Source: a virus. Taken from it: a stretch of 50,896 nt of DNA. This document shows, in pieces, positions 4,827 through 37,352 of the stretch (positions are counted from its first letter, which is position 1; each line of letters begins with the position of its first letter). The translations under genes were made by a program, and so were the position numbers. The stretch covers positions 1 to 50,896 of the IMG/VR virus record IMGVR_UViG_3300017719_000013, one strand, 5' to 3'. The notes below the pieces were generated by a model that did no database searches, was not told the origin of the DNA, and saw nothing but the letters and a program-made list of their open reading frames with translations.

Positions 4827-7658
4827 ATGGCTACTAGAAAATATCTAAAATTTGGTTTAAGGGCAGATAAAGACCTTTCCGATCTGACAAACTCTAAAAT
4901 TGCTGTAGATAACATCTTAAACAATTTGGCGAGTGGTTCTAATGTCTTTGGTCAGGCGTATAGCTTTTCTAGCGATGATATCGCTCCCATAAGAGAACTT
5001 GCTTCGACTGCTCTAATCGATATTATTGATCCAAATGATGCCTTGCCTAAAATACTTACAGATTTAGAGGGATCAGTTTCTAAATATGATGCTAGTGTAG
5101 TTCCAGGCGATCCTAAAAGTGGATTCCAGAATATACAACCCCAAGTTACTCTACAAGATCACTTAAATAGATTCAAAGTGGTCTTTGGTAGCCCACCATT
5201 TATTGCTGGCGGGTCAGGACCAACATCAGATTATATACACTCATCTAGATTGACCTATATTACTGGAGATATCGATAACTTTACTATCAATTTAACTCCA
5301 ACCACAAACGCTAGAAATGATTTAGTGATTGGTAATCGATATAAGATTTTAGATAAAGGTGATATCATAGATAGCCAATGGGATTCAATTGCTGTTGTTG
5401 ACGCAGGTTCATATTCTAACGGAGATGTATTTATCTGTGATCAGACTGTTGCTACAGTTATAGGTGCGAACACGACCGCTGTTGTTAGAGATGTTTCGAC
5501 TCCATCTGCAAACTATGCAACTGCACTACAAAATATACAACCAAACGATTTACCATCAAATAAATTATTTACGAGAGTCGTGAATAATTTACTCCCCAGT
5601 ATTGAGACTAGTGAAAATGCTTGGACAAGCGGTCAATTTGAATACACTGGTAGTATAAACGAGGCATTTAATAACAATGTTGGTGCTATTCAGCACACTG
5701 GATATCAAGTAGATCAATTTCAACCAGAAATAGAAACTAATGGATTGATGATAATCGAAGAAGATATTGTCGATACTCCGGGAGACGATACGAATTGGAG
5801 ATTCATAAGAGGAACAAATAGTTCAACTGTTGTCCCCACATATAATGTCACATGGCTAACAAACAGCAACGGATTTACCGAAATAACATTCACCAATATT
5901 GAAGATTGGAGAAAAGTTGCAAAATATATGCAATGTACAATAAATGGTGCGGCAGCAGGTGAGGTTTCCTCAACAGAAACTTCTAATGCAGACTATCGTG
6001 TTATTCTTGATGCTGATTTTGGAACTACTGAAAGTAGCGGAACAACCAATATAGAATTCTCATATACTATAGGTGGAGAATTCTATATTTGCTACGATAA
6101 GTTAGACTTTACTGCTCCTAGAGGAGACTTCAGACGAAAAGTACGATACACTGTGTGGTGGCCGGAAGGAACACCTGATGGAGCTAAGTTTTGGGGAAGA
6201 AAATATGATACTTCATATGACTTTGGGTCTTTGAATTTTTACAAGGTTCAACTTGACGAAACCTTTGTATCGCAAAGATATAGCTATCCATACTTTAGAG
6301 ATAATAGAGCAAATATACTCAAACAAAAAGGGGAAACAGAACTTAGAGTAGATACAAAGTTTTTAAACTTGTATCAGAAAGACGGTGCTGATAAAAACAT
6401 TGCTGAAAATACTAGCATTTTCCCAGACACAGCATCTCCCAATTATAACACTATTTCAAGTTTTACGATCACTGTTGATACCGGCGGAACCGTAGAAGCA
6501 AGTTCGGGCACCTTTGATAACGCTGAGGTCGGGGACTTTATAGTTTCTTCTCGTGATGCACATACTGGAAATGGTCAAAAGTACTTTGCAAACCAAATAG
6601 TACAAAAAGTAAGTGGTTCTAGGGTCTATATCGATAAGTTGTATGTGACTCAGACAGCAATACCATCACTAACTCCACACAAGGCGTTTTTGGTAAAAAA
6701 CAACGGTCTTATTGGAATATATAAATCATATGACGACTCTGGTGACATAACGATAGAAAGAATAGATGGAAACAATGAATTCGCAGTATACCCATTCGAA
6801 GTCGAAAGAGATACTATAGTCTATAAAATTGATGACGGTCCATTTATAGATACAGATAACGGAGATGGAACTTACTCACCAAGTACAGCAACAACACACG
6901 ATACGCATAGATATGGGTTTAGAGTTACTAGCGTAGGCCACAACAACAGCATATCTGCTTTATCGTCAGCATTAACAGTGGAAGCGCATCCATCTGATTC
7001 AGGAGCAACTATATCTACAAACAATGGTATTATGGTTGCATATACATCTAAGGGGTTGATTGATAGATCAACTGTTCAAGAATGTACTGATGTGTTTGGT
7101 CAAGAACTTGCTATAAACGCTAACTCAGGGCAAAACTCATTAACACTAAAAGACACAACTGGTATATCTGTTGGTCAGTATGCTTACTTTGACGGAGCAA
7201 TACCGTACGGAAATCCAGATGACACAGCAACAGGCTTTCCCACAATGACTAGAGTTATGACTGTTGATCATTCTACAAAAGTCATCACTTTAGGTAGAGG
7301 TGGAGTTGATTCTAACGGAGGCTTAACCATCGATGTTGACTTAACTGCCCCGATGTCAGCAGGAGCAACAATAGTATTCGTTCCTTATGACGCAGGTCCT
7401 GATTCTAATGGTTGGGATAGACAAAATAAAGAATACTGTGTTATACCACTAAACACTGCTCCACCGTGGGAAGGCACTGATTTAGGGCTTGCAAGTCCGG
7501 CTGTATCTTCTGTAGAAAATTACGGAGTTATGGCAAGAGAACTTAGAGTAGTTACTTTATCTCTTGTTACTCCAGATGTTAATATTGGAGTATATACTGC
7601 TGATAATGACGATAAAGTTAGATATATGAAAGTAAAGTATACCCCACCAGTAAGTTAA
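4827..7658 (+). CDS. Large fibre-like structural protein with module A
   Basis: A 943-residue beta-rich virion protein, last of the rightward cassette. Its first 60 residues (ADKDLSDLTNSKIAVDNI, then FSSDDIAPIREL) resemble the N-termini of the leucine-rich-repeat protein and, more weakly, the 835-residue protein on the other strand, suggesting a shared attachment segment. Residues about 166-224 contain one copy of module A (IGNRYKILDKG, DSQW, NGDVFIC). The middle has many aromatic beta strands, with VWWPEG near residue 447. About 770-850 includes a LTLKDTTGISVGQYAYFDG strand pair of the sort seen in phage fibres. No catalytic motif was recognised. The ribosome site is weak (AGAGAAA). Its stop overlaps the opposing gene's stop. 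Confidence 0.75.
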   Translation: MATRKYLKFGLRADKDLSDLTNSKIAVDNILNNLASGSNVFGQAYSFSSDDIAPIRELASTALIDIIDPNDALPKILTDLEGSVSKYDASVVPGDPKSGFQNIQPQVTLQDHLNRFKVVFGSPPFIAGGSGPTSDYIHSSRLTYITGDIDNFTINLTPTTNARNDLVIGNRYKILDKGDIIDSQWDSIAVVDAGSYSNGDVFICDQTVATVIGANTTAVVRDVSTPSANYATALQNIQPNDLPSNKLFTRVVNNLLPSIETSENAWTSGQFEYTGSINEAFNNNVGAIQHTGYQVDQFQPEIETNGLMIIEEDIVDTPGDDTNWRFIRGTNSSTVVPTYNVTWLTNSNGFTEITFTNIEDWRKVAKYMQCTINGAAAGEVSSTETSNADYRVILDADFGTTESSGTTNIEFSYTIGGEFYICYDKLDFTAPRGDFRRKVRYTVWWPEGTPDGAKFWGRKYDTSYDFGSLNFYKVQLDETFVSQRYSYPYFRDNRANILKQKGETELRVDTKFLNLYQKDGADKNIAENTSIFPDTASPNYNTISSFTITVDTGGTVEASSGTFDNAEVGDFIVSSRDAHTGNGQKYFANQIVQKVSGSRVYIDKLYVTQTAIPSLTPHKAFLVKNNGLIGIYKSYDDSGDITIERIDGNNEFAVYPFEVERDTIVYKIDDGPFIDTDNGDGTYSPSTATTHDTHRYGFRVTSVGHNNSISALSSALTVEAHPSDSGATISTNNGIMVAYTSKGLIDRSTVQECTDVFGQELAINANSGQNSLTLKDTTGISVGQYAYFDGAIPYGNPDDTATGFPTMTRVMTVDHSTKVITLGRGGVDSNGGLTIDVDLTAPMSAGATIVFVPYDAGPDSNGWDRQNKEYCVIPLNTAPPWEGTDLGLASPAVSSVENYGVMARELRVVTLSLVTPDVNIGVYTADNDDKVRYMKVKYTPPVS
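7655..7658. other. Shared TTAA: two convergent stop codons overlap
   Basis: The rightward gene ends TAA at 7656-7658 and the leftward gene ends TAA at 7657-7655, both inside one TTAA palindrome. There is no intergenic space and I see no hairpin terminator nearby, so each transcript must run into the other gene's antisense strand. Confidence 0.9.
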
Positions 7659-10162
7659 GGTCCTGTTTCTTCCGTAGTAATAACTTTATAGTTCCCTGCG
7701 GCTATGTCAGCGGCATCAGCATATGCTAATAAGGAATACACTTCTCCGTTTACATTAATTGGAATCTTATGCGTGAACTCAGTTACTTGTCTTGCAAAAG
7801 TTTCACCATCACCGTGTTTTGGATATAATCCATCATCGTCAATATCTTCTTGATTATCATTAGCAAATATTAATTTTGGCTCTCCTTTTGCAGTACCACC
7901 ACTTGGTGTAGGATTACCAGAAGCAGTAGAGCCTGCGCCGGTTGCTGTAGCAACAAAAGAGTCACCAACTCTAGCTATCATTTTTGCTACTTTACCTGTT
8001 GACCCAGATGTTCTACCATTCTGTACCGCAATAAATATGTCACCCAGAATATAGTCTTCTCCGACTGTACCCGCAACATAGTTCCAGTCACCATCACCTA
8101 CAGAAGTGATTTCATATTTTTTCCCTAAACGAATATTCTCATATGCAGTAAGACCATAGACTTCACTCCAATCTCTATTTACCCCTAAGTCTTCTATGAT
8201 ATAACTTTCTGTCGGAACAAATACTCCCCAAGAAATTAAGTCTCTTCTGTCAATTAAAAGATTACCTGCCTGCGCTGTAGGAGATGTAGTTTTTAGAAAT
8301 GGCGCAGTCAGTGTTAAGTTTGGTGCTGTACCTGATATATTAGGTAGAAGAGCCCCATTGTATAAGAAATTAGTATGTAAATTGCCATAATTGGTTGTAT
8401 TCGATATATCTAAGTCTAGAGACTGATCTTTTACCCAGGGATTATCTTTACCACTAAAGGCTCTTTTTGCTTCGCCCGTTCCGGGGTTAGATATGTACAG
8501 ACCCTTAGGTTCTATAGATTTTGCTCTACTGCTAGAGTTTAAATTTCCACCTGTAGAAGTAGCAATAAATATTGCAGGCGCAACTGTAGCACCACTTATT
8601 TCGTTAGCACTAGATAAGTTTGATGCAGTAACCAAATCACCAACTTCATATGTTACTGGTGCAGAAGTAGTACCAGAAAGTTCATTCCATACCGCCTGAT
8701 TATCCACCGTTAGTGTGAATTCGCCAGTATAAGGTGCTTGTTTCGTTAAGTTTAATGCCGCACCACCGTCATCAGTAGATAAAGTCATTAGCTGTATTCT
8801 TTCTGCTGTAAGTCTTCTAACATAGTAAGTAGTACCACTTGTTAGAGGGGCTATTTCTGCACCAGAAGTTTTTTGATATACTACAAGATCGTTAGTCTGT
8901 AATCCATGATCTGATCCATTAGTTAGCTGTATGTATTCATTACCAATACTATCATTAACTGAACCATCAGTAAAGGTAAACACTCCGTTGGTGCCTAGAA
9001 CTGAAGTACCAAAGTCTGTAATCTTATATACCCTATCTTGCTCTAAATTAGATTGCGTCAAAGATATGCTTTCAACACCAAGAGCAAGGCTATTTGTACC
9101 AACATTTGACCATATGGCATTACCGATTTGTGTTACCTCGTACTTTTGTCCAATAACGAGATCGCCAAAAAGGGTGGGCACACCAATTTTTAATGTTCTG
9201 TTTGTAGATGACTGTGGTCTATTTGTAACTCTAACAGCACCATCAAACCTAATACCATACTGCATATTAAATCTATTATTGACATATGTCAAAATAACCT
9301 TTTTCTTTTTTATGTTTATCTGGTCTATTTGAGATTGTATGTCTGGTATACCGCCCTCTAAATAGGTTTCTTGAGTTTGTACATCATACACTTCATCTCC
9401 AAATGGGTCTGGAGATAATGTTGACAATGTATCTTCATTATCCCTTGTATTTAAAGAGACATCTAATCCAAGAGGGGTAATATGAGCATTGTTTATATTT
9501 TGTATAGTAATACTATCATTTCTAGTAATAATTAAATTAGTTACCACTCCCGCACCGCTTCCAGTATCCAAATCCCATATAGCATTAACATCAGACTTGT
9601 CTGCTAACTGAAAGGTATCTACGCCATTACTATTAACTACTTGATAATCGTAAGAATCTCCATTATTGACAGAAACAGGTGTACCTTGAGTAAAAGCAAC
9701 ACGACCCCTACGCTTGATGACTTTAATTGTCCAACCTTCAGACGGATCGCCAGAAGTTTCAAAAAAGGCTGTAAATTCGGTAACATTTATAAGTTCAAAT
9801 GCAGACCCGAATGCTCCAACTATATAATCTGCTCCACTGTTAGTGGCGATAAATACATCATTAACTTGTGGTAAGGGTCCAGTTCCATCGGTGTTTGCCT
9901 CCCATCCAACTTGAGGCCAGTCTCTACTATTACCAACATTGTTAATCTTGTAGCGTTTACCAACTTCAAAAGCACCCCAGGGAATAGACTGGCCTAACTC
10001 ATTTGGATTATTCACGAGTCTAGACCTGTGTCCAAGATTTCCAACAAACAGACGAATGTCGTCAGATATACCAACACCACCCAGGTTGTCGATTATATTT
10101 TTATCAGCTAGAAAGCTATTACTTTCTCCTAAGTTTGAGTTTGTTACAAATCCTTGAGCCAT
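7655..10162 (-). CDS. Fibre-like structural protein with several module A copies
   Basis: An 835-residue protein, last gene of the leftward structural operon. It is largely built of the recurrent module A: clear copies near residues 60-118 (GKRYKINNVG, RDW, NDVFIAT), 332-365 (GQKYEVTQIG, IWSNVG) and 676-728 (GKKYEITSVGDGDWNYV, GDIFIA), with two partial copies near 373-398 and 646-678. Residues about 410-480 hold the HGL module (DHGLQTNDLVVY, then TSGTTYYVRRL). The first 40 residues (SFLADKNIIDNLGG, SDDIRLF) resemble the N-terminus of the 943-residue protein. AGAGGA sits 8 bases before the ATG. I infer a peripheral fibre or baseplate appendage; no enzyme motif is visible. Confidence 0.75.
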   Translation of the reverse strand: MAQGFVTNSNLGESNSFLADKNIIDNLGGVGISDDIRLFVGNLGHRSRLVNNPNELGQSIPWGAFEVGKRYKINNVGNSRDWPQVGWEANTDGTGPLPQVNDVFIATNSGADYIVGAFGSAFELINVTEFTAFFETSGDPSEGWTIKVIKRRGRVAFTQGTPVSVNNGDSYDYQVVNSNGVDTFQLADKSDVNAIWDLDTGSGAGVVTNLIITRNDSITIQNINNAHITPLGLDVSLNTRDNEDTLSTLSPDPFGDEVYDVQTQETYLEGGIPDIQSQIDQINIKKKKVILTYVNNRFNMQYGIRFDGAVRVTNRPQSSTNRTLKIGVPTLFGDLVIGQKYEVTQIGNAIWSNVGTNSLALGVESISLTQSNLEQDRVYKITDFGTSVLGTNGVFTFTDGSVNDSIGNEYIQLTNGSDHGLQTNDLVVYQKTSGAEIAPLTSGTTYYVRRLTAERIQLMTLSTDDGGAALNLTKQAPYTGEFTLTVDNQAVWNELSGTTSAPVTYEVGDLVTASNLSSANEISGATVAPAIFIATSTGGNLNSSSRAKSIEPKGLYISNPGTGEAKRAFSGKDNPWVKDQSLDLDISNTTNYGNLHTNFLYNGALLPNISGTAPNLTLTAPFLKTTSPTAQAGNLLIDRRDLISWGVFVPTESYIIEDLGVNRDWSEVYGLTAYENIRLGKKYEITSVGDGDWNYVAGTVGEDYILGDIFIAVQNGRTSGSTGKVAKMIARVGDSFVATATGAGSTASGNPTPSGGTAKGEPKLIFANDNQEDIDDDGLYPKHGDGETFARQVTEFTHKIPINVNGEVYSLLAYADAADIAAGNYKVITTEETGP

Positions 10163-10186: not shown

Positions 10187-13100
10187 CTACAAATAGTCTT
10201 CATCAAGTGAGATAGTCCAACCATGATCTGTTGTTAGACTTCTCCATTTATTGTATGGAGACAAATCTGCTTCTGCTCCGGGGTCATCTTTTAAAGCCTG
10301 AAGACACATTCTTTTTATGGGCTGTCCTTGAGAATCGATTCCCGCATCCTGCCCCGTAAATTGGAAGTATACTCCTGTGGATTTGCTTTTCGAGCGATTT
10401 TCCCACAAATCATTTATGATTGATAGCGTATCTTCTGCCCGCAGTGCGTTGTTTCTAAAAGAAGCATATGATATTAGTGTTGCATCTGAAAGGGTGCCAG
10501 GAGTGTGACTGTCAAATTTATTATCATATGCATAGATATTTGTTATGCCTGTAATGCCACTAAGGTCTGGAAGAGGCCCAGTAAATCTGTTTCCGTACAC
10601 AAACAGGTATTGCAGTGTTTTACCAGAGCCACCTTGTCTAAGTTTTGGAAAGTCGCCATAAAAATTATTATTATACATAAAGAGATACTGGAGTCCACTT
10701 AAACCAACTATCTCGCCACCTGTACCAGTCTGTAACTCCCAAGAAGTGCCCGGAGTCGCAACACTTTTCATACTATATCTAGCAACTGTGCCTGTTCCAT
10801 AGTTAGTAGTGCTTACTTTTTGTACATATCCACCATGAGTTCTTTCCGCTTCTACTCCATTGCTATTTGCAGTAAATACTGTGTCTACAGCAGTTGACCC
10901 TCCAGACTTAACTGTACTCCATGCGGATGTACTATTACCAGTCTGTATGATTTTATATTCCACACCGCTTTGTATGTCAGCCATGTTAATTCTGTTTGCT
11001 GATGTAGTCGCTGTAAATTTTGTTCCTTTAGCAGGAGTACCAGAAACACCAAGTGCTTGCCACTGGGCTTCACTTGTGCCGTCAGGGTCTAAAATAACAT
11101 ATGTTATGCCAGCAATAAGACTATTTGCAGTCAACGGCTGATATATAAACCAGTCGTTTGATGATGGATGTGACCCATGTAGGGTGTTTGACCCCCAAGG
11201 CACTATATCATTATCTTTATTTCCTACTCCAACAAAAGATCCTTGCTTCCACCCCATGTCTATCATTTCTTCTTTACATAAATCATACTCGAAAGAACCA
11301 CCACCACTTTCAGCAAAAATACTATTCCTTTGGGTGGTTGAAAAATCCATAGCAGAGAATTTGTACGCCTCACCGGGTTTCATAGCAAACATTGGTACGG
11401 TCATTGTTCTCATATTCGATATAGTTGCCTGCCTACCACTGGCAATGCCACCAATATTTGGAAAAGTTCCAAAAATCTGACTGTAAGTTATGTATACTGG
11501 TCGCCAGCTAGTGCCGTTCATATCTTCAACACCTAAACTCCTATCGGCATGAATAAATTTAGTGGCAGTATACCTGTGACTGCTGAAATAGAATGTATTT
11601 ATTCTGTTTTTAACAGTTTGTAATATTTGTCCAGTTTTATCAGATCCAGATGCGCCCTCCAGTCCAAACAAATCATGCTCAATCCCATATGGTGAAAGGG
11701 CTAAATAATCATCTAGATTACTATAAGTACTTTCATATAACTCAAGTTTACTAATTCTGGGCGACCCACTAAAAGTATTGTCGTTTAATGAAAACTGCAA
11801 ACCCTTGTTTTGCCCAAAAATCACAGTGGACATATCGGGTTTGTTTCTAAATACAGCACTTACATTACCAAATATTCTTCTACTAGTAGTACCGCAAGAC
11901 TTAATTTCAAGTTTTAATAAATTAGGTAACGGGGTCAATTTACTGCTGTCTAGAGTTCTGCTTACCAAAGGAAATGTATCCAAAGGGTCAGTATCATAAA
12001 GAGTAAGGCTTGTTAGCGTGTTATCCCATTTACTATAATCCAAGAATGTCAGTTGCGTGTTAGAACTTACATATGTTTTTAATTTATCTGTCGCTAAGTA
12101 GTGTTCACGATCTTCATTGCTCTTAGCTATTGTATCTGTGGTCGAATCATCATAAAATCTATACTCACTAGTACCTACTAACGAAGGACAAGTTCTAACA
12201 CTAAATGAAGTCATTCTCTTACTATCAGCTACAGACGTTGGTATATATCTAAGTGTATAATTATTACTTTGAGGCCAGGATACAAGGCCCACTTGCGTAT
12301 TATACTTGATGTCGCCAGCACCATCATTTGCTGAGATATCCCAGACAACAAAACTATGAAAGGTCCCCGTTCCGGTGCTACTATAGCTACTTATAACCTG
12401 ATTCTGAATAGTTTGTAGTGTAAAAGTGTTTTCAGTCACACTAGCAACTTTATATATCGTTTCATCTACAAGGCCTCCAATTGCAGTACCTAGTGTCCCT
12501 TCAATTGTAGTTGCATCTCCATCATCATCACCAACTCTAACATCATAACGAACATAATCTCCTGATTTCAATCCATGTTCAGTAAAAGTAAACACCCCAG
12601 TACCTGCATTAAGCGCAGTCTGTGGATTGAAATTAATCCTGAGAGTTGCCGAAGCGAATGTAGCGCCATCATCACCAAGTCTTAGCTGTGGGTATCTTGA
12701 ATTGGTGTTATATGCACCTAGTAATGGTGTTTCCAATACTGGAAGATGCGTTAAGTCTAAATCTGTTGCATCCCCCTCAAAGGAGTTTCTGAAATCAAAG
12801 TATTTTACGCTTGATGGAAGTCTGTCCATATTGGCTTGAATTGATCCATCAAAAAAACTACCATCTCCGTTTAAGTTATTTTCATTAGCATGATTTGCAG
12901 AATTGAAAAAATTCTGAAATTGCATATTTACTCGTTCTACCCTGCGAGCATATGTCTTAAGGTCGGGCATAAATTCTAAATTATCGCTATATAAAGTAAG
13001 ATATCTCAGGTTATCAAAGCTAGTCTTAGGGAATGCATCTATACCGTTGCGATACGAATACATAGATGTAATATTAGCAGGGTTATAGAAAAATTTAGTT

Positions 13101-13906
13101 TTAATCTCTTCTGCCACAACACTAGCAGTGCCTGGGCTATAAATATTGTATGAACTTTGTGGTGTTCTTTCATATGGTTCACCTATTTCTTCACCAGTTT
13201 CCAAATCTTCTCTGACAACAGTAAGAGGTATGTTTCTTCCATCAGCACCTTCCAACAGCGGAGTTTTGAAATAAAAAGTTATTCTTGGGTCTGGTTTACT
13301 CATAACCATTTCAAAGGGTATTCCACGCATAACCGGGAATGAAACTAATTTCCCATTTATGTTAATTTTGATTATGTGTGTCGCAACTTCTGATCTAAAT
13401 CTTTTTCTATCTGGAGCCTTAGTTAATGATAAGTCTGTAATAGAGAGATACTTTCCTTTAACGTGAACATCAGAGTTGTAAATTATAAACTGATCTGGTG
13501 CTTCTGGAGGGCCAAACGGCGACCAAGAAGACACCCTTGATGTAGATATGTCCGCACCCTTTGAGCCCCAAGAAGCATCACTAAAGTCTATATAATTAAA
13601 TTTTATAGTTCCGCAAACTAGCTTGTTATCTATTTCATAATTAAAAACTTGGTCAGTATCTGCTCTCTTTATTCTGGCTGAGTCCAACCCCGCAACAGAG
13701 GCAGCATTTTGCATAGAAGCCATCAAATTTCTTTGATCATCGACAAGACCAGATAAGGTATGAATTTCATCACGAGTTATTACTGCGCTTAAATTTCTTA
13801 TCAAATCTAAATTGTCTATTCTCAAACCAAGATTGGCTAAAGCAACATCAGAATTGGAGATGTCGCTCAAACTCTTAGCTACATTGAGTCCTCTATAAAT
13901 TGTCAT
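10187..13906 (-). CDS. Tail fibre-like protein with leucine-rich repeats
   Basis: A 1239-residue structural protein. The N-terminus (GLNVAKSLSDISNSDVALAN) resembles that of the 943-residue protein on the opposite strand. Scattered leucine-rich-repeat units are visible: NLRYLTLYSDNLEFMPDL near 299, units around 560-680, and a clear C-terminal set at about 1069-1160 (LQYLFMYNNNFYGDFPKL, LQYLFVYGNRFTGPLPDL, ITNIYAYDNKF), where the NxFxGxxP pattern is that of ligand-binding leucine-rich-repeat proteins. It also holds the HGL module near 430-500 and two module A copies (about 926-971 and 975-1030). Its ATG overlaps the preceding stop (TAATG) with GGGAA upstream. A receptor-binding role is inferred. 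Confidence 0.75.
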   Translation of the reverse strand: MTIYRGLNVAKSLSDISNSDVALANLGLRIDNLDLIRNLSAVITRDEIHTLSGLVDDQRNLMASMQNAASVAGLDSARIKRADTDQVFNYEIDNKLVCGTIKFNYIDFSDASWGSKGADISTSRVSSWSPFGPPEAPDQFIIYNSDVHVKGKYLSITDLSLTKAPDRKRFRSEVATHIIKININGKLVSFPVMRGIPFEMVMSKPDPRITFYFKTPLLEGADGRNIPLTVVREDLETGEEIGEPYERTPQSSYNIYSPGTASVVAEEIKTKFFYNPANITSMYSYRNGIDAFPKTSFDNLRYLTLYSDNLEFMPDLKTYARRVERVNMQFQNFFNSANHANENNLNGDGSFFDGSIQANMDRLPSSVKYFDFRNSFEGDATDLDLTHLPVLETPLLGAYNTNSRYPQLRLGDDGATFASATLRINFNPQTALNAGTGVFTFTEHGLKSGDYVRYDVRVGDDDGDATTIEGTLGTAIGGLVDETIYKVASVTENTFTLQTIQNQVISSYSSTGTGTFHSFVVWDISANDGAGDIKYNTQVGLVSWPQSNNYTLRYIPTSVADSKRMTSFSVRTCPSLVGTSEYRFYDDSTTDTIAKSNEDREHYLATDKLKTYVSSNTQLTFLDYSKWDNTLTSLTLYDTDPLDTFPLVSRTLDSSKLTPLPNLLKLEIKSCGTTSRRIFGNVSAVFRNKPDMSTVIFGQNKGLQFSLNDNTFSGSPRISKLELYESTYSNLDDYLALSPYGIEHDLFGLEGASGSDKTGQILQTVKNRINTFYFSSHRYTATKFIHADRSLGVEDMNGTSWRPVYITYSQIFGTFPNIGGIASGRQATISNMRTMTVPMFAMKPGEAYKFSAMDFSTTQRNSIFAESGGGSFEYDLCKEEMIDMGWKQGSFVGVGNKDNDIVPWGSNTLHGSHPSSNDWFIYQPLTANSLIAGITYVILDPDGTSEAQWQALGVSGTPAKGTKFTATTSANRINMADIQSGVEYKIIQTGNSTSAWSTVKSGGSTAVDTVFTANSNGVEAERTHGGYVQKVSTTNYGTGTVARYSMKSVATPGTSWELQTGTGGEIVGLSGLQYLFMYNNNFYGDFPKLRQGGSGKTLQYLFVYGNRFTGPLPDLSGITGITNIYAYDNKFDSHTPGTLSDATLISYASFRNNALRAEDTLSIINDLWENRSKSKSTGVYFQFTGQDAGIDSQGQPIKRMCLQALKDDPGAEADLSPYNKWRSLTTDHGWTISLDEDYL
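10430..10702 (-). repeat. Leucine-rich repeats in fibre C-terminus
   Basis: This segment encodes at least three consecutive units of the form LxxLxxYxNxFxGxxP, followed by a degenerate unit (ISYASFRNNALRAED) and a cap. The repeats are protein-level; the DNA copies have diverged. Confidence 0.65.
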
Positions 13907-16900
13907 TATTGTTCCCTATTCGTCACAGATAGTTCTAGATTGCCCGCTTGTCCATCCAAAGATGTCGCAGTTATATATACCGCTCTATTATTTAGTGAAC
14001 CTCTAGTAATGCTTTTTCTATCTCTCGAAAAAATATTATCCAATCCTATACTTAAAGTTTCATTTTGACCAACATATGCAGAGTATAAAACATTCCCGGG
14101 TCTCAAAGAATTTGAAAGCTGAGTAGACTTGTCGTATCTTGACGCAGATAATCTATCATTAGAATTAAATGACGAAGGAGAAGATGTCGGTGGAACATTA
14201 TATGAGTGTGGCTGCCCTAGATGAGTACCAGTATTAGAATTATTTACAGTTATATTATGACCCGTATGAGTCTCTAGAGCAAAATCTGGAGTATGTGTTC
14301 TGATATCACCCATCTCTAATATTTCCTCGATCACAATACCATTTATCTTAGCATAGTCCCCCAAAGCAAACACTGGATATAGTGGTTGCGTATTGAAAGA
14401 AACTGCCTTTATAGATGAAAATGATTTATGTTCGTTTTGTCTATTACCAAACTCGTCTATTGAAAATGCCTTCCAGTCATCTTTTAGCGTAAGAGTTTTA
14501 GTCTGTAAAATTCTATCATCTTCAGATGCAGAAGCAAGTTCGGTTAGTAGTGAAGCGTCATACTCTACATATATAAATGAGCCAATCTCTTCTCTTACAG
14601 TATCTTGAATGAAGTCGCTAACAAACTTCACTCCAGTTCCACCAAAATTTCTTCCTAATTCAGATTGATTTGGAATTATTCCCTGTGGTGGAGAAAATGC
14701 TGGCGGGAAGTTTATTTGAATTCTTGATGCGCCTTCAAAGAAAACGCTTTCAGGCTCTACAGAATGATATCGAAAATCATTAACAGTAACTTTACCGACA
14801 ATAGTACATATGTTACCCCTGTCTAATCCATCTATTTTATTCTCTACGTTTCTATCTAGTCTAGGGTCAATTTCGAATCGATTTCCATAGAGTGGATCAT
14901 ACTCTCCGTATTCATAGTCATTTCTATGATCAAATTTAACATCAGAATGAGAAAATTCCACATAAGGAAACTCTGTAGAATCAAACTCTTTGTACTCTAG
15001 ACCATCGTCTCCTGTAAACTCAAACTTTAATTCTGGATCACTATCTGATCTCTGAGCAGTTTCTTTAGGTTCATATGGAGTTATTCCTATACCAAACTCT
15101 GCCCAGTGTTGATAATCATATGGATGTGGAGTTGAACCATCTTCAATGGGGTCTATGCTTGTTGGATTCAAGAAATGTATCTTAAAGTTATCCGTAAATA
15201 TTGGAGTTTTAGATGCGACTATTGCTCTGTTATTACTCAAGTGTGCGTCAAACACTAAGCCTGGGTCTTCGACAGATATTATACTACCAGTTCTTTTTTT
15301 AGAGTTAGTTGCGGTTGCCTCAACTCGTTCGTAGGGATCTTGATTAAAATTATCTCTTCCCCTTTTGTTAATCGTACCAGTTTGATCTGCAATATATGTT
15401 CCATAAACTCCATCTGCTATCACATGAGACCCAACTTCATCTAGGTTTATCTGGTGAGATACAGTTGCAGTATCGATATATGTTGATGTGGTTTCTGTGC
15501 CATTTTCAATAGCTTTATCTAGTATAACTTGTACCGCTCCTGTGCTACTAAACGATGAAGTTCCTACTGCATTTACAAAACTTTTAGCATAGCAAGTGTC
15601 GTTCACACCATCTATAGCTATAGCGTCTCCAACTTGAACACCATCAAATGTGTGTTGATAGTTACCATCGGTAGTGTCTATTGTTATAGTTGATGACTGA
15701 TTCGCATAACTTACCTTAAATTGAGGTCCTATTAATATTCTATTGCCATTGCCCTGTCTAGTAAAGACTGTAGAGTTATCTTCGAGATTTAAACCAACAA
15801 CAGAGATTCTACTTGGGGGAGTACCACTACTATACTTAAAAGTTAACTTTCTACTTTTAGGGTGTCTGCCATTCATATGTAAAGATGCTGAATAATTAAA
15901 ATGAACTCCCTGTGGAGAACCCTTGATTTCTTCGAAATCAATTCTAGTGGCTTTATTAGAAGATACTGTTAGCGTAGTTGGGTAAATCTTCTTAAAATTA
16001 ACTCTAGGAATACCGTCACTATTAAGTATTTTTTCTTTTGGCATTATTCCAAGTATAGGAGTTCTAGTAGTAAATGTTTTAGTATCAACATTTTCTGAAG
16101 ACAATCTTATTGTGCCTTCATCACCACCGTCTACATACACCGATGATCCATACTTGTAAAGATATATCGGTGATCGAATTTCTTTAGTATTAGAAGTGGC
16201 AAGCAAATACTTCATTCTGAAATCTGGATTTTCGAGAACAGGCTCTCCAAGAGCATTCTCAATGACAAATGTATGCATAAGAACCCATCTAGCATCACCA
16301 TTACCCACAGGAACATATGCATAAAACTTAGCACCAATGGCTCCGTACCACGAGAACTCGATTTTATACATTGTAACATCTTCGAAAGATAGTGTGTAAC
16401 CAGAAAGACCACCGCCCTGAAGAGCATCGCCATTAAACTGCTCTCTTAGTATTCTTGTTTGGTATAGTTTTCCGGCATTTGGATCATTTTGATTAATATC
16501 GTTTCTTACGCCCGGAAGAGAAACTAAAGTTTGATTAGTTCTAGGTATACCTTCTCTTTCAAACCAAGTATCGGGAAGTTCTACTGAACTTCTTCTTATA
16601 ATACTTAATGATTCGCCTTTAAGTTGAAACATATATTCATCAGTATCATTAGAGCATCCCCACTCAGCAACAGTGGAAGATGTTGGTGCGCCATCAGATT
16701 GCATTCTAACACCAAAAGTAAATCCGCTTACACGCCCAGGTTGATATCTAAAAGTTCTTTTACTTAACAGTATCCCATGATAAGGCGCAGTATTAGAATC
16801 TCCAGGTAGAGCCCTATCATCACGAATCATATTTTGAATCAGCGTGTATTCGAAGAATGCTTTATAGCCTTCATCTCTTATTCGATCCTCTCTGTCTGTC

Positions 16901-18099
16901 CCTTGTCTTGCTATTAAGTTAAGGTCGTTTATTGGTGGATATTGGTCAGTACCACCCCTTATTTTATCATAAAATGCTGTCCATCTTTCGATTGCATCAT
17001 AGGAATCTTGTTCATTAGAAAGATAGTCTACATCGAAAAAACTACCAAAGTTGCTAAAGTCTAATGTACTAATAGACCCGCCTGCCGGAAAACTATATGC
17101 CGGCTCATCGATAGTACCAAATGGTTGTTCAGATGGATCAACAATTTGAACGAATCTTGGTGCTAAGAAATTTTTCTCTGCAAACTGATAATGTCCATCC
17201 TTATACCAGAAATCATAAAGATATCTACCTAGAGCAATAAAATTCATATATAGTTTAAATCTAGGTGTAGCAGTGCCTAGTTTTTTATATCTTGTTCCGT
17301 ATGGAAAAGTGTACTGCGTAGGAAAAGCCTTCAAGTACAGTGCTTGTTCATCTGACCCCTCGTTAAACGAAATATTTGAACGTCTCCCATGAACAGGGTG
17401 ATCTTTTCTATACCATTCTGGGGGATTGTCAGCATGACCTTGCCTTAAATCAGATGCATCCCAGTTGTCAACATCAAGTCCATAGGTTGCCACATCAGAA
17501 AAAAGACTTAACTGCTCCTCTGCACGAGGAACACCCAAAAGAGACGAACTAACTTCAGAAGTTTCTTTAAATTGTTCAACTATCTTTACTGATCCACCAC
17601 CACCAGGTTTATTTTTATTGTTAACCTGAATCGACAATGCGTTATCGGATACTGTAAGACTACTTAAAGCGGCACTTTCTTCTGTTACAAGTGGATTGTT
17701 GGCATCATCAAATAGTAATGTGCCGTCAATATCTACTAGCTGTTGGAATACCTTTGTGACTGGAGCAGGTACTTTATCGAAACCAATTTTTATATCTCTA
17801 CCTAGAGAATTTTGAGTAGTAGTTATTTTTTGTACATTTATAGTACTAAGATTGGTGGTGCTACCAACCCCTTCCAGTCTAAAAGATATGGGAGTACTGA
17901 TTGGATTATCTGGATCGGTTGAATCAACATTATAGACGATTCTATCTGCTTTGTAGTCGCCATCGACTAGAGTTCCAGTAACATCTGAAACTCTAAATTT
18001 ATCATTGAGTTCTACTTTATAGCCAGGTGCGGTTACTACATCCGCCGAAACCCCTGTTATTGTAGAAGTAATCTCTTCGTAAAATACTTTTGCTGACAT
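13906..18099 (-). CDS. Giant structural protein, paralog of the upstream gene
   Basis: A 1397-residue virion protein that shares blocks in the same order with the 1559-residue protein just upstream: SSLLGVPRAEEQLSLFSDV (about 178-196), RTFRYQPGRVSGFTFGVR (about 447) and KIEFSWYGAIGAKFYAYVPV (about 577), followed by a KYGSSVYVDGGDEGTIRL strand. Such proteins occur in marine T4-like phages as large virion proteins of unknown role; I recall this rather than having searched. It has no module A copy I can see. Its ATG lies 3 bases after the preceding stop with GGAAGAG upstream, and its own stop overlaps the next start (TAATG). A peripheral baseplate or fibre component is most likely. Confidence 0.75.
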   Translation of the reverse strand: MSAKVFYEEITSTITGVSADVVTAPGYKVELNDKFRVSDVTGTLVDGDYKADRIVYNVDSTDPDNPISTPISFRLEGVGSTTNLSTINVQKITTTQNSLGRDIKIGFDKVPAPVTKVFQQLVDIDGTLLFDDANNPLVTEESAALSSLTVSDNALSIQVNNKNKPGGGGSVKIVEQFKETSEVSSSLLGVPRAEEQLSLFSDVATYGLDVDNWDASDLRQGHADNPPEWYRKDHPVHGRRSNISFNEGSDEQALYLKAFPTQYTFPYGTRYKKLGTATPRFKLYMNFIALGRYLYDFWYKDGHYQFAEKNFLAPRFVQIVDPSEQPFGTIDEPAYSFPAGGSISTLDFSNFGSFFDVDYLSNEQDSYDAIERWTAFYDKIRGGTDQYPPINDLNLIARQGTDREDRIRDEGYKAFFEYTLIQNMIRDDRALPGDSNTAPYHGILLSKRTFRYQPGRVSGFTFGVRMQSDGAPTSSTVAEWGCSNDTDEYMFQLKGESLSIIRRSSVELPDTWFEREGIPRTNQTLVSLPGVRNDINQNDPNAGKLYQTRILREQFNGDALQGGGLSGYTLSFEDVTMYKIEFSWYGAIGAKFYAYVPVGNGDARWVLMHTFVIENALGEPVLENPDFRMKYLLATSNTKEIRSPIYLYKYGSSVYVDGGDEGTIRLSSENVDTKTFTTRTPILGIMPKEKILNSDGIPRVNFKKIYPTTLTVSSNKATRIDFEEIKGSPQGVHFNYSASLHMNGRHPKSRKLTFKYSSGTPPSRISVVGLNLEDNSTVFTRQGNGNRILIGPQFKVSYANQSSTITIDTTDGNYQHTFDGVQVGDAIAIDGVNDTCYAKSFVNAVGTSSFSSTGAVQVILDKAIENGTETTSTYIDTATVSHQINLDEVGSHVIADGVYGTYIADQTGTINKRGRDNFNQDPYERVEATATNSKKRTGSIISVEDPGLVFDAHLSNNRAIVASKTPIFTDNFKIHFLNPTSIDPIEDGSTPHPYDYQHWAEFGIGITPYEPKETAQRSDSDPELKFEFTGDDGLEYKEFDSTEFPYVEFSHSDVKFDHRNDYEYGEYDPLYGNRFEIDPRLDRNVENKIDGLDRGNICTIVGKVTVNDFRYHSVEPESVFFEGASRIQINFPPAFSPPQGIIPNQSELGRNFGGTGVKFVSDFIQDTVREEIGSFIYVEYDASLLTELASASEDDRILQTKTLTLKDDWKAFSIDEFGNRQNEHKSFSSIKAVSFNTQPLYPVFALGDYAKINGIVIEEILEMGDIRTHTPDFALETHTGHNITVNNSNTGTHLGQPHSYNVPPTSSPSSFNSNDRLSASRYDKSTQLSNSLRPGNVLYSAYVGQNETLSIGLDNIFSRDRKSITRGSLNNRAVYITATSLDGQAGNLELSVTNREQ

Positions 18100-18102
18100 A
18101 AA

Positions 18103-21100
18103 CTATTGCTCTTCCCATGTTACACCTAAGCTGATATCATTTGTTGTGCCCGAGTCTACATCACGGTCTACCGAAAGATAGAGGCTATCTGCAATATCTG
18201 TCAGTGGATATGAGAGATATTCTTTATTATAATCAAAATATGGTGCTAAATCAAATTGCTCTGTTCCATGTTGTAAGTATGTAGTTGCAACATTAATTCC
18301 AGTATCAGGGATAGGAACAACCACATCAGTAGCGATTAATACAGAACTTAGACCTTCTTTTTCATAAGAAGCCTTGGATGTCGTATTGCTATATGCTACA
18401 GTAGTACCATTAGCTTGGAACTTTTTATCAGCTAAGAAAGTACCACCACTAAACAGTGTTAGTTCTCCTTCAAAACTTTCTAAAAGTTCGAAATAAAACT
18501 GATCTGTTTCTTTATATAGTCTTCCAAAAACAGTGATACCTTCAGTTCCAATTCTTCCTCTAAACCAACCATAAGTGCTTTCACCATTCTGTAAATATGC
18601 ACTGCTTGAAGTTGGTAATGGCGCATTCTCACTCGTAACTGTATAGTTGTCAGTTAATGCAAATCCACTGGCCCCAGGAGTAACTGATGTCTGGAATATA
18701 GGAGTCTTCTTGAATCTTAGTCTAACAGTTCCATCCGCCGCATTACCACCCGAATCAGTTCCACCTAAGTTTGCTGTTGACATCTTAGTTGGATATACCT
18801 GAACTCTGTTACGAACTAGGTTACCCTCTTTTGTGCTTTTAATCACTTTCTTGGTTTCTATTCCGTACACAGTTTCTGCTCTATCTGGCAAAATCTTAAT
18901 AGACGATGTGCTATCTAATTGACCAGATAGATATAGCTTGTTACCCGAAGCATCTACCCAAACGACTTTAATATTTTGATCAAGAGCAGAAGCAGTTTTT
19001 ACTGTTGCTCCCATGTAGAATGCTTCATCAATTCCGCTATTGGGATCGGTGTTAATATAGAATGTGTTGCTTCCCTCATTAGGCGCACTACCACCAATAT
19101 CTTGAGAGTTAGTTCTATCTTGGGCAATACCGGTAATAGCAAATTGTTTACCACGACAAGTTACTGGATTATCATTATTGTGGCTGTATAGACGAACAGT
19201 ACCACGGTCACCACCATCGATATAGTAAGAAGCACCATATTTTACAATGTGGTGAGAACTGCTTGTGTATCCTTTATCGTAACCTATTCCATCATTCGCT
19301 GTTTCTTCTCCATCTCCTAAACTTTGCGAATCACCGCCACCATAAGTTGTGTAAGTGATCGGTAGTGTTGCGTTACCAAGAGATGCAATCTTCAACTGAT
19401 TCGATGCTCTTAGGTGATGTACTCGTACCCATCTTGCTTCACCGTTACCAACTGGAACATATGCTAAGAACAATGCACCTACCGCACCATACCACGAGAA
19501 CTCAATTTTAAGCATCGTTACTTTAGTGAAGTCATAGTTGTAGAGACTGCTTTGTCGTGAGTCTTCACCAACTGCTTCGCTGTAAATTTGACCAGGTCTA
19601 GCGACTGTGCCGTCAACAGGTGATGTCGCAATGTCACTGTAAACTCTTGATCTACTTAGACTATCGCTACTATATGAATTTCTTGCTAACGCTTCACTCG
19701 AAACACCATCAAGTGCATCATGACTAAATCTTGAACGAGGTACACGATACTCATAAACACCCCAGAACTCAGGCTTAACATTATTCTTAATCCAGTTTAC
19801 ATATTCTGGGAAGAAGTTCACATTGTCGATCTGTGATCTAATTGTGTTTACATTATCTCCTGCATTTCCGTTTGGATCAAGAGCAGTGTTAACAAATCCT
19901 ACATATGCTTCACCCAGACCACCATCTGCTCTGAGGTCATCTCCAAATGCGTACATATATGGGAACATTGCACCCTTAGGAGTTGCTCCAGTACCACCAT
20001 CTACGTTTGAAAGATCGATGTATCTAAATCTTCTTTGTGTGCTTTCATCATCCCTGTCGTTTGCTTGATTATTCAGACTGTCTGGATGTATATCTATCTC
20101 AGACAATAGTGTAGTGTCAATACCTGGTGATGATGCAGTATTATGTCTCAGTATATCATAGTCTAATGGGAATACGAACGGTACTACTGTCTCAACATAA
20201 AGAGTGCCTACAGCAGTACCCGCAGTATCAGCAACACCATTGATCACATATTGACTGCTTGAATTCTGAAGCGTAATAGGCATTCTATGTTCAGCAGTAT
20301 TATTACCCGCTTTCGTTGCAGTGAATATGTTACCTTTGGGTCCTATCACCTGTTTAACCAAGACGATTTCACCCTTATCCAATTTTACTTGCCCAACATT
20401 AGCAGATGAAGATTGTATGTCTATACTTGTTGCAGAACCACTCCAAGTGATTCTAACGTGTTGTGCAAAAGTGACATACTGATCAGTTAATTTTATCTTG
20501 GTTGGTACTTTATCACCAGTAACTTCAGACTGAACACCCTTATCTTCTATAACCGACTTAATCTTTTTGGCATCTTTTAGCAGTGAAGGATCATAGATTC
20601 CGGCATGAGTATGAAGTAAGCCATCTCTCATCACTACTAAGTTGCCTGGGAATCCACGATCACCCTCAGTAATAGACTTACCATCTTCTTCATCAAAATT
20701 AGCTACAACTCTTGACGCTAGTGCAGATAGTTGCGTTCTCTTATCTGATAGATCCTGCGAAACACCTAAAGTTCCATCTATAGCTTGGAAATCTAATTCA
20801 AGTACAGATTTTAGGTGTTGATGTCTTGTGGGTTCAGATAGCGTACCGTCAGCCTCTTCTTGCGAATAAACTGATAGTCCGGTGCCACGCAAAAACATTT
20901 GCATATTATACGCAGTTTCTGCATCACCACCACCGATGACATCATTCTTATATCCATCGAGAATATAACCAACATCACGCTGACACTTGTCTCGCAACAG
21001 TTGCTGTAACTGTTCTTGTGTTAAGTCTCTAAACGGTTGTAATGCTGTTTGTGTCGTGTCTGTACCACCATCTGTGAAGCCACTGGGCCCATATTGTGGA

Positions 21101-22782
21101 GCGGTGTATGTGATGCTTTCTGCTACTTTACCAACACTTGTTGATGATGGTTGAGTGTTGGTTGCTTCAAAAACCTTACCAATAAAATAATTAGCGTTTG
21201 TCAAACCAGTACTGTTCGCATCAACATCAGTCCAAGTCATATCGGTTCCCAGATCCGTTATGACATATTTTTTACCGGCAGTTAGTGCTGAAACACCTGA
21301 TCCTACCGATTGGGTATCTTTTTTAGCAGTAACATAATAAGACCAAAAGTTTCTTTTAGTCTCAAAAATAGTGTCCAGTATACTTTTGTTACCATAGTCA
21401 GCAGTAGCAGAAATATCTGGAACTACAAAGTTGTTATTAACGCCATTACCATCAAGGTCTTTCGCATTACCAAATGCATTTGCAGTAATAGTCGCTAAAG
21501 CTAGTAGCTTGGCTTTACCCGCAGTGGATAATTCTGCCCCTAAAGCACCACTCGCACTGTTAGCATTGATTAAGTCATAAAGTGCGGCATGGATTGGTGC
21601 TTCAAACAATGAAACTTGTGGGAAAACACCTACAGAAATTCTCGGACTATTCCATGCGGCTTCTGATGTTCCATTTGCTGTCGGAAGAGCAAAGTTCGTA
21701 GTATTCCATACAGTGTGTGCAGTACCGTCACATTTTAAATCATATAGGAACATATCAATCCAGTAATCTAAATCACGCTTGCACTTTTCTCTTAATGATT
21801 CGGCAGTAATAATTGCAGTCGCACTACCTGCCCAACCCACGGCAGCATTAAACATATATGCAAAACTATTATAAAAACTGGTTTTTGCCGCACCTAAATC
21901 CGAACCAGTTACTGTAGCACCTGATGGTGTTAGTGTGAAAGAATCACTATCAGCAGGATCAGACCATGCTGTTTCTGCTGTTTGCATGATAGAATTAATA
22001 ATATCGTATCTTGCATCTTGTAATATTTTTCTATCGCTTACATACTCACCCTTTTTAGCGTAGACCCCTTCTTCGGCTCCTAAACCAACAATTCTGTAAT
22101 CGTCAAGTTGCGTAGTATCTACTGTATTACCAGTGCTTCCCTCGCCTCTCTTTAGAGTAGTCCCAGCAATACCAAATGGGCTTACGGGACCGTAGTTTAG
22201 AGACTGAGTTCTACGAACACATGAGAAGTTATCTCCTTTACCATTGTTTCTATTTTCCCAGTAATAACCATCATAGTTATCATAAATACCGAACTTACGA
22301 ATAGGTGGATTTTGACAGAAATCAAATCCACTTACAGTACTCTTAACACCAAATGTTGCGGCAGATACACGACCAGGCTGATATCTGAAGAAACGCTTTG
22401 ATGTGAGTACAGCAACTTTGTTTCGTGATGCTTCTACAAGTGCGCCCGCTTCTGTAGGAAGATGCTTAATACCAATTGCTTGTCTGTCAACACCGCCAGC
22501 GATATGATATTCTGGCTTCATCGACCATTCTGATGGGTTAACATCATAAGTATTAACATCAGCAAAAATACCAAGAGCAATTTCTGCTCTAGGTATACCT
22601 AGAAGTGATAGTGCGACTTCAGACTGTACTTTATTCTGCTCTTCAACAGGAATGGAAGTCTGATCAGATGCCATTACTACAGGTATAGATTTAGAAGCAG
22701 TCTGGGGTCCCGGTGTAACTGGTGTTGTTCTACCTACATTAACTACACTTGAATTTTGGTTTACATTAGTTATACTTGACAT
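18103..22782 (-). CDS. Giant structural protein with helical repeats and module A
   Basis: A 1559-residue virion protein, homologous in order and wording to the 1397-residue downstream gene (SLLGIPRAEIALGIFADV near 59, RFFRYQPGRVSAATFGVK near 130, KIEFSWYGAVGALFLAYVPV near 1090). The N-terminus has a SIPVVMASDQTSIPV segment typical of phage structural proteins. Between the first blocks and the SWYGA block sit large insertions: two related helical segments (LREKCKRDLDYWIDMFLYDL near 323 and LRDKCQRDVGYILDGYKNDV near 592) and one module A copy (about 500-558). AGGAAA lies 7 bases upstream of the ATG. No enzyme motif was recognised. A large fibre or wedge-peripheral protein is inferred. Confidence 0.78.
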   Translation of the reverse strand: MSSITNVNQNSSVVNVGRTTPVTPGPQTASKSIPVVMASDQTSIPVEEQNKVQSEVALSLLGIPRAEIALGIFADVNTYDVNPSEWSMKPEYHIAGGVDRQAIGIKHLPTEAGALVEASRNKVAVLTSKRFFRYQPGRVSAATFGVKSTVSGFDFCQNPPIRKFGIYDNYDGYYWENRNNGKGDNFSCVRRTQSLNYGPVSPFGIAGTTLKRGEGSTGNTVDTTQLDDYRIVGLGAEEGVYAKKGEYVSDRKILQDARYDIINSIMQTAETAWSDPADSDSFTLTPSGATVTGSDLGAAKTSFYNSFAYMFNAAVGWAGSATAIITAESLREKCKRDLDYWIDMFLYDLKCDGTAHTVWNTTNFALPTANGTSEAAWNSPRISVGVFPQVSLFEAPIHAALYDLINANSASGALGAELSTAGKAKLLALATITANAFGNAKDLDGNGVNNNFVVPDISATADYGNKSILDTIFETKRNFWSYYVTAKKDTQSVGSGVSALTAGKKYVITDLGTDMTWTDVDANSTGLTNANYFIGKVFEATNTQPSSTSVGKVAESITYTAPQYGPSGFTDGGTDTTQTALQPFRDLTQEQLQQLLRDKCQRDVGYILDGYKNDVIGGGDAETAYNMQMFLRGTGLSVYSQEEADGTLSEPTRHQHLKSVLELDFQAIDGTLGVSQDLSDKRTQLSALASRVVANFDEEDGKSITEGDRGFPGNLVVMRDGLLHTHAGIYDPSLLKDAKKIKSVIEDKGVQSEVTGDKVPTKIKLTDQYVTFAQHVRITWSGSATSIDIQSSSANVGQVKLDKGEIVLVKQVIGPKGNIFTATKAGNNTAEHRMPITLQNSSSQYVINGVADTAGTAVGTLYVETVVPFVFPLDYDILRHNTASSPGIDTTLLSEIDIHPDSLNNQANDRDDESTQRRFRYIDLSNVDGGTGATPKGAMFPYMYAFGDDLRADGGLGEAYVGFVNTALDPNGNAGDNVNTIRSQIDNVNFFPEYVNWIKNNVKPEFWGVYEYRVPRSRFSHDALDGVSSEALARNSYSSDSLSRSRVYSDIATSPVDGTVARPGQIYSEAVGEDSRQSSLYNYDFTKVTMLKIEFSWYGAVGALFLAYVPVGNGEARWVRVHHLRASNQLKIASLGNATLPITYTTYGGGDSQSLGDGEETANDGIGYDKGYTSSSHHIVKYGASYYIDGGDRGTVRLYSHNNDNPVTCRGKQFAITGIAQDRTNSQDIGGSAPNEGSNTFYINTDPNSGIDEAFYMGATVKTASALDQNIKVVWVDASGNKLYLSGQLDSTSSIKILPDRAETVYGIETKKVIKSTKEGNLVRNRVQVYPTKMSTANLGGTDSGGNAADGTVRLRFKKTPIFQTSVTPGASGFALTDNYTVTSENAPLPTSSSAYLQNGESTYGWFRGRIGTEGITVFGRLYKETDQFYFELLESFEGELTLFSGGTFLADKKFQANGTTVAYSNTTSKASYEKEGLSSVLIATDVVVPIPDTGINVATTYLQHGTEQFDLAPYFDYNKEYLSYPLTDIADSLYLSVDRDVDSGTTNDISLGVTWEEQ

Positions 22783-28316: not shown

Positions 28317-28501
28317 TTGCTCATCTCGTTAATGGTTTTCTGGATTAAAGTCATTGCAGACTCTAACTTTTCGATTCTAGTTTCTAGACCTTTAATGTAT
28401 TTATCTTGATCCCTTTTAGCAACAGCTTTCTTGTACGCAGAAACATCAGAGTTTACGATTCCCGATCCACTTTCACTCCTAATAAAACTATGGTTATTCA
28501 T
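28313..28501 (-). CDS. Small coiled-coil protein between baseplate and fibre genes
   Basis: A 62-residue protein with a polar N-terminus (NNHSFIRSESGSGIVNSD) and a heptad-like C-terminal half (YIKGLETRIEKLESAMTLI) that should form a coiled coil. Both ends are locked into the operon: its ATG overlaps the stop of the DUF4815-type gene (TAATG) and its TGA overlaps the next ATG (ATGA). I recall a similar small gene at this place in marine T4-like phages, without a known function. It might trimerise with, or chaperone, the adjacent fibre; this is inference. Coupled overlaps on both sides make it a real gene rather than chance. Confidence 0.8.
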   Translation of the reverse strand: MNNHSFIRSESGSGIVNSDVSAYKKAVAKRDQDKYIKGLETRIEKLESAMTLIQKTINEMSK

Positions 28502-36377: not shown

Positions 36378-37352
36378 TTACTGAGAACGAGGTTGTTTGC
36401 TTACCGGTCCTACGACATACGGATAAGCGGGGTTATTCGGTACTTCATCTTCGCTTACTTCATCGAATGTTAAGAAGTAAGCATATGTGCCTTCTTTGAA
36501 ATCTGGTGTTACGCAATATCTTCCATTAAATGCGTCTAGAGTACCTGTAAATTCTTTAAGTTCATAGTCTTCTACATAGATCCCTTGTATAATAGATACT
36601 CTTTCTGGATGATTCAATATCGGATCATCTTGATCTCTGAGTCCATAAGCACTTATCATTTGCACCACGCTAGAAGTTGGGTCGAGTGGTTCGTAATATC
36701 CATATGGACCGTAAATTGGAAATCCATCAAGTGCCCATCCTATTATCTTAGAGTGACCCGCAGTGAATGTTGTGTTATCATGTTCAATCGTATCATGTCT
36801 TAGATAATCTGAACCAAAGGAACTAGAACTTATGTAGTCACTGGAGTTGACAAAAATCATATTTGGATTAGCGCCATTAGCAAATCCATTGTAACAAAAG
36901 TTTCCAGTTCTATATCTATACTCACCATCTACTTCTGGTCTACCACCACAGTTATCTAATGCGTCATTCAAGTCCGGGCTACCCAGATTGAAATGAAAAG
37001 TAGAACCAGAATTGGAATTATCTGTTGGATGAATTTTAGATAATGGGCTATATATTGGAACTCCATTAATAGCAACACCAACAACATCATCTTCTTGTAC
37101 TCTTTTACTTGGTTCAGAATACTGATCTCTGTCACCTGCACGATATTTTATTTTATACTCTTTAGGTGGATCCCTATCTATTATTGTATTATATCCAGTT
37201 CTAGTGTCCGAAAACCCTCTAACAGCACCAGTGTTTAGAGGAGAACCGAAAGTAACACCAAATTTACCATCGCTAGAAACTCCATCAGTGTTTGCACTGC
37301 CTGCTTTAGCAGGAAAAGGATCTCCATCTGTTTTTATTTTCAAAAATGCCAT
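36378..37352 (-). CDS. YHYH-domain virion protein
   Basis: A 324-residue protein with features of the YHYH domain: GHSKIIGWALDGFPIYGPYG at about 197-216, and toward the end NGRYCVTPDFKEGTYAYFLT with a YPYVVGP finish. YHYH domains occur in secreted bacterial proteins and, as I recall, in marine T4-like phage structural genes; their biochemical role is not settled. The gene sits between gp7 and gp8, its ATG overlapping the gp7 stop (TAATG). T4 has no gene at this position. It has several aromatic and Cys residues (DNCGGRP, NFCYNG, YCVTP) that could form disulfides. A baseplate-exposed binding protein is inferred. Confidence 0.8.
   Translation of the reverse strand: MAFLKIKTDGDPFPAKAGSANTDGVSSDGKFGVTFGSPLNTGAVRGFSDTRTGYNTIIDRDPPKEYKIKYRAGDRDQYSEPSKRVQEDDVVGVAINGVPIYSPLSKIHPTDNSNSGSTFHFNLGSPDLNDALDNCGGRPEVDGEYRYRTGNFCYNGFANGANPNMIFVNSSDYISSSSFGSDYLRHDTIEHDNTTFTAGHSKIIGWALDGFPIYGPYGYYEPLDPTSSVVQMISAYGLRDQDDPILNHPERVSIIQGIYVEDYELKEFTGTLDAFNGRYCVTPDFKEGTYAYFLTFDEVSEDEVPNNPAYPYVVGPVSKQPRSQ

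Follow-up and report, generated by a model that had tools for sequence, protein, structure and literature searches.

An open reading frame (ORF) in viral DNA contains leucine-rich repeats (LRRs), which are predicted to form one arc-shaped solenoid of 19 units with a C-terminal cap. The ORF encodes 1239 aa and alone fills positions 10187-13906, on the minus strand, of the window, by which we mean the whole 50.9 kb stretch of DNA analysed here, an IMG/VR virus record with T4-like myovirus genes on board. Judged from the alignment of its relatives, what varies in the family is inserted domains and point changes, not repeat number. With moderate confidence, we read the protein as an LRR-scaffold adhesin of a T4-like marine phage, associated with the tail or baseplate, whose loops would dock exchangeable domains; such a host-sticking scaffold probably does not evolve by repeat gain or loss.

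The receptor-binding proteins of phages are, for the most part, beta-helical or beta-sandwich fibres and, to our knowledge, little is known about how T4-like marine phages bind their hosts. An LRR tail protein that is conserved, and of which a cultured Synechococcus phage has an ortholog, would be a direct candidate for host binding and, if this is true, cultured cyanophages would already encode a new receptor-binding class, annotated as “virion structural protein”. Additionally, domain insertion into a rigid repeat frame would be a mode of fibre change distinct from repeat expansion.

Identification of the repeats

A preliminary description of this ORF pointed to consecutive LxxLxxYxNxFxGxxP units near the C-terminus, and these are indeed found as LQYLFMYNNNFYGDFP (residue 1072), LQYLFVYGNRFTGPLP (1098) and ITNIYAYDNKFDSHTP (1121). 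It also placed further units upstream, at residues 280-700, and the structural model has them at residues 279-426 and 541-837, interrupted by two non-LRR insertions. A strict regular expression for the LRR core matches the window protein three times, against 0.69 times in shuffled sequences (3.3% of the shuffles reach three), and an HMM of independent bacterial LRR units provides only modest support, as 2-3 of 300 shuffles reach its score on the window sequence. When the PDB was searched with phmmer, residues 1065-1158 matched plant LRR kinases with an E of 2e-4 for the best single stretch, the best whole-sequence E of 1e-16 being the sum over several overlapping placements.

Recognition by LRR profiles, on which the preliminary description had made its claim depend, is weak for the window protein, whose Pfam LRR_4 and LRR_1 scores lie below their cut-offs, and holds for the family, as LRR_4 is matched by 17 of 17 aligned members at E<=1 (the best at 1e-13). 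The profile of these 17 members, in turn, matches plant LRR receptor ectodomains at an E of 1e-76. Thus, although Pfam alone misses the repeats in the window protein, its relatives settle that they are real. The tandem LxxLxLxxNxL units of 20-30 residues that define the LRR class number 19 in the model and the alignment, and the plant-type GxxP signature is present (GDFP and GPLP in the window protein); the residues found most often at positions 13 and 16 of the unit are G and P.

Predicted structure and parts of the protein

AlphaFold2 models were built with family alignments for residues 40-1239 of the window protein (mean pLDDT 80.8) and for a short relative, L014 (pLDDT 81.8), and most of the repeat region is confident in both. 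As the preliminary description had anticipated, the predicted structure is an arc-shaped LRR solenoid, one face of which is formed by a parallel beta sheet. Compared with plant receptor ectodomains, the L014 model reaches a VIA Z of 24.9 over 401 residues (3.5 A) and the window model a VIA Z of 15.9 over 470 residues (4.5 A); whole-model TM scores are low, as one would expect of a long, curved solenoid. Towards the N-terminus the model is poor and no fold is claimed there. The following parts are distinguished:

13733..13906, minus strand: N-terminal module (residues 1-58, starting MTIYRGLNVAKSLSDISNSDVALANLGLRIDNLDLIRNLS), a probable virion-attachment module present in all family members
13082..13609, minus strand: conserved beta-rich domain (residues 100-275), from the family alignment, with AlphaFold2 strands from residue 177 onward
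12629..13072, minus strand: LRR units 1-5 (residues 279-426), from the strands of the AlphaFold2 model and the family alignment
12326..12628, minus strand: insertion 1 (residues 427-527), a beta domain between LRR units 5 and 6, missing in short members and with beta strands in the model
11396..12325, minus strand: LRR units 6-15 (residues 528-837), from the strands of the AlphaFold2 model and the family alignment
10766..11395, minus strand: insertion 2 (residues 838-1047), in the loop of LRR unit 15, missing in short members
10409..10765, minus strand: LRR units 16-19 (residues 1048-1166), the repeats first noticed, from the phmmer search of the PDB and the model
10187..10408, minus strand: C-terminal cap (residues 1167-1239), ending ...GWTISLDEDYL before the stop, from the family alignment and both models

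The family HMM of the N-terminal module matches the orthologs in S-TIM phages (see below) at 8e-9 and, in relatives, the gene at the position of window gene w4827 at 7e-5 and 2e-4, the match to the window copy being marginal (0.05). The beta-rich domain holds a near-invariant ADISTSRxSSWS motif, and its model is of low confidence before residue 177. Insertion 2 carries copies of a GxxYxIxxxG..W..GxxFxA motif (motif HMM matches at residues 935-966 and 981-1013), and the cap is a conserved helix plus strand in the alignment and in the models of the window protein and L014.

Tail operon and family

The window encodes gp6-, gp25-, gp53-, gp8- and gp5-like baseplate proteins and a tail fibre protein, all on the minus strand, and its gp6 protein is closest (approximately 39%) to those of the Sinorhizobium phages phiM12/phiM7. 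As for a T4-like tail fibre or adhesin, the LRR gene shares an operon with genes for the baseplate and the fibre, and it is found towards the fibre genes, between those of a phrog_1645 virion protein and a further tail protein:

13906..18099, minus strand: virion structural protein encoded upstream (phrog_1645), which anchors the synteny of the family
7655..10162, minus strand: downstream gene, coding for a tail protein in which the inserted beta motif occurs several times

In all 18 related contigs, the phrog_1645 gene is immediately followed by a homolog, and a profile scan widens the family to 75 distinct sequences, a few partial or single-domain matches included. Neither the window protein nor a short member found a match when cultured phages were searched directly; the link to the cultured Synechococcus phage S-TIM5 was established through fold and synteny. 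The best viral fold match is the S-TIM5 protein H6WFW9 (Foldseek 9e-15), which is equated here with AEZ65694.1 because phage, length (1193 aa) and name agree. Its gene is preceded by two phrog_1645-like genes and followed by a same-strand gene and then a convergent gene, in positions matching the window. In this ortholog, which has the N-terminal module in common with the family, LRR_1 scores above the Pfam cut-off, and its annotation reads only “virion structural protein and packaging”, with the LRRs unmentioned. Further orthologs are found in S-TIM54, S-TIM61 and S-TIM66 (genus Aurunvirus). By synteny, N-terminal module and LRR fold, the window protein belongs with the S-TIM5-type family, while tblastn and phmmer found no full-length sequence match between the two proteins.

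The assignment to a phage tail or fibre protein, made in the preliminary description, is supported by the operon position, by the N-terminal module common to the S-TIM orthologs (and, weakly, to a neighbouring structural gene) and by the S-TIM5 annotation. These same observations make it improbable that we are dealing with a non-virion protein, that is, a secreted or cytoplasmic LRR effector, such as a decoy or fibre chaperone, located in the operon by chance. LRR effectors do occur in other bacteria and viruses, but the module shared with the neighbouring structural gene in relatives, the fixed place among structural genes and the annotation of the S-TIM5 ortholog all argue against this.

A Photo_RC gene is present in an uncultured relative (L099, a 145 kb record), as in S-TIM5, and was found in none of six other records of 100-152 kb, which may be incomplete; consequently, both cyanophages and phages with other hosts probably carry members of the family. 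The family is best read as a widespread, unnamed one of marine T4-like phages, and a literature search, with subscription journals mostly outside its reach, returned no paper describing LRRs in cyanophage tail proteins.

Regarding the host-derived homologs that it was suggested to look for, a genome scan for an LRR donor produced 20 matches, and only one was close (61%). This contig (L105, NHEZ01000047.1) comes from a phage and has the gene order of the window, although it was binned with a bacterial MAG, Cellulomonadaceae bacterium TMED98. The remaining matches come from Chloroflexota, Acidimicrobiia, Bacteroidota and further groups and are plant-type LRRs of an ordinary kind. The scan found no host donor, as its matches in diverse bacteria are generic. 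The repeat type resembles that of plant receptors but is a common class, and descent is not claimed.

Repeat number, insertions and length

When 56 non-redundant members were aligned, every one of them had all 19 units occupied and 48-56 of the 57 core positions for hydrophobic residues filled. In long members, whose inserts may, as far as sequence shows, contain LRRs, the placement of units is forced by the alignment. No insert longer than 60 aa is present in the 19 short members (788-902 aa), and their total length leaves no room for extra LRR units. Both inserts of the window protein are non-LRR in the model, and a search for hidden LRRs in inserts with the unit HMM, which detects only 23% of the known segments of units 8-13, found none. 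Repeat-sized indels were not found when close pairs were compared, nor were tandem repeats of LRR length in the DNA. The comparison of repeat number across relatives that the preliminary description called for thus returned no variation, and its proposal that the surface diversifies by repeat gain and loss was rejected.

Length in the family ranges from 788 to 1641 aa, mostly as a result of non-LRR domains inserted at fixed inter-repeat loops. The main sites are between units 5 and 6 and in unit 15 (22 to 643 residues between unit starts), and three distant members have long C-terminal extensions. The GxxYxIxxxG..W..GxxFxA motif of the window insert recurs in eight tail or baseplate ORFs of the window, a gp53-like ORF included:

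7655-10162, 4827-7658, 10187-13906 and 18103-22782: ORFs with the motif
28501-34332, 34350-36359, 37352-41626 and 48679-49440: further ORFs with the motif

The window and related loci together contain more than 100 ORFs with this motif, which has the look of a domain inserted in many places. None of the motif-bearing ORFs that were scanned had a Pfam match, and tblastn of its consensus and one natural copy against the phage collection gave no match, the queries being possibly too short or filtered.

Some individual inserts show further features. The unit-15 inserts of L046:8212-9930, L052:8353-10161 and L061:8539-10068 have weak, sub-cut-off cupredoxin similarity; those of L046 and L052 also resemble phrog_677 (baseplate wedge-fibre connector), in a search that covered these two, and those of L046 and L061 show weak Lcl_C similarity. 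At the same site, the insert of L095:8449-9525 has no Pfam or PHROG match and is beta-propeller-like by eye only. L025:6001-9528 and L037:6001-9564, which are 80% identical overall, share 43-72% identity over residues 420-720 and 80-97% in the flanks, a mid-arc drop that suggests local exchange.

Function of the arc

In the mechanism that we propose, the N-terminal module and the beta domain would fix the protein to the virion, and the tyrosine-rich concave sheet of the arc would probably contact the host surface, perhaps a glycan. In the alignment, entire additional domains are accommodated by the fixed loops, mainly by those between units 5 and 6 and within unit 15, and these domains would probably extend or change binding, so that the protein would vary by substitution and inserted-domain exchange at a constant repeat number. 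Taken to its full extent, namely that a fixed-length plant-type LRR arc with a Tyr-lined concave face is a host-binding tail module retuned by loop domain swaps and represents a new class of receptor-binding protein, this interpretation is tentative.

Tyr occupies 23.5% of concave positions 3/5/7 and 3.2% of positions elsewhere in short members, an approximately sevenfold difference (26% and 3.6% in the window protein), and tyrosine enrichment on such a surface is compatible with glycan binding. On the basis of sequence, a receptor-binding surface on the LRR protein is plausible as a candidate. In most pairs, the conservation of the LRR gene is approximately 4-20 points below that of the two genes upstream of it, and S-TIM5 and S-TIM54 are 41% identical in the LRR protein and 96% in PhoH. 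This is as expected for an adhesin, but the neighbours in the block diverge as much: flanking genes +1, +2 and -4 do so as fast as the LRR gene or faster, and consequently it is not singled out as the specificity gene. Additionally, in the L016/L017 pair, conservation of the LRR gene is not lower than that of the gene immediately upstream. In one clade of 10 close sequences, with all pairs pooled, no positive selection was seen on the concave face, where a pN/pS of 0.08 indicates purifying selection and does not resemble the diversifying pattern of a host-range surface. Fibres are usually trimeric and LRR solenoids usually monomers, which we counted against the adhesin reading; the LRR arc of the window protein is a single-chain model.

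As the evidence on function is mixed, the adhesin reading is the best but not the only one. Its main rival, which we consider unlikely, holds that the arc is a structural spacer or mounting frame that binds further proteins of the phage within the baseplate/fibre complex, with host contact made by the inserts or by neighbouring fibres. The constant arc length of 19 units, the concave face conserved in the close clade and the insertion at fixed loops of domains whose beta motif is found in other tail ORFs would all fit a frame, as would the 99.4-99.7% identity of the LRR proteins of S-TIM5, S-TIM61 and S-TIM66, which are recorded from two different Synechococcus hosts (the recorded host not being the host range). 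By contrast, short members keep the arc though they have no large insert, and in most pairs divergence is faster in the LRR gene than in the structural genes upstream of it. Finally, although the repeats are real and total lengths vary widely, an LRR receptor-binding fibre diversifying by gain and loss of units is very improbable with 19 units in every member, no repeat-sized indels in close pairs and no LRR-length tandem repeats in the DNA.

Comparison with known systems

Two PHROG families without assigned function, 6688 and 21719, match the LRR region of family members, although only in relatives, as the window protein itself gives no match. The Vibrio jumbo phage vB_VhaM_pir03 likewise encodes an LRR protein in a marine phage (ORF 287, BspA family), which is of the DUF285/BspA repeat type according to the table, with no tail context given (PMC7765460).

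The S-TIM5 protein and its S-TIM54/61/66 orthologs resemble the window protein in gene order, N-terminal module, fold and LRRs (in S-TIM5, LRR_1 above the Pfam cut-off), and they differ in giving no full-length sequence match to it and in an annotation that leaves the LRRs unmentioned. With the ectodomains of plant LRR receptor kinases (GSO1, FLS2, BRI1, MIK2 and PXY/TDR), the phage protein shares the LxxLxLxxNxLxGxxP repeat and the solenoid fold, at 12-20% identity in structural alignments; unlike these receptors, it has no kinase or membrane part and carries an N-terminal module and large inserts.
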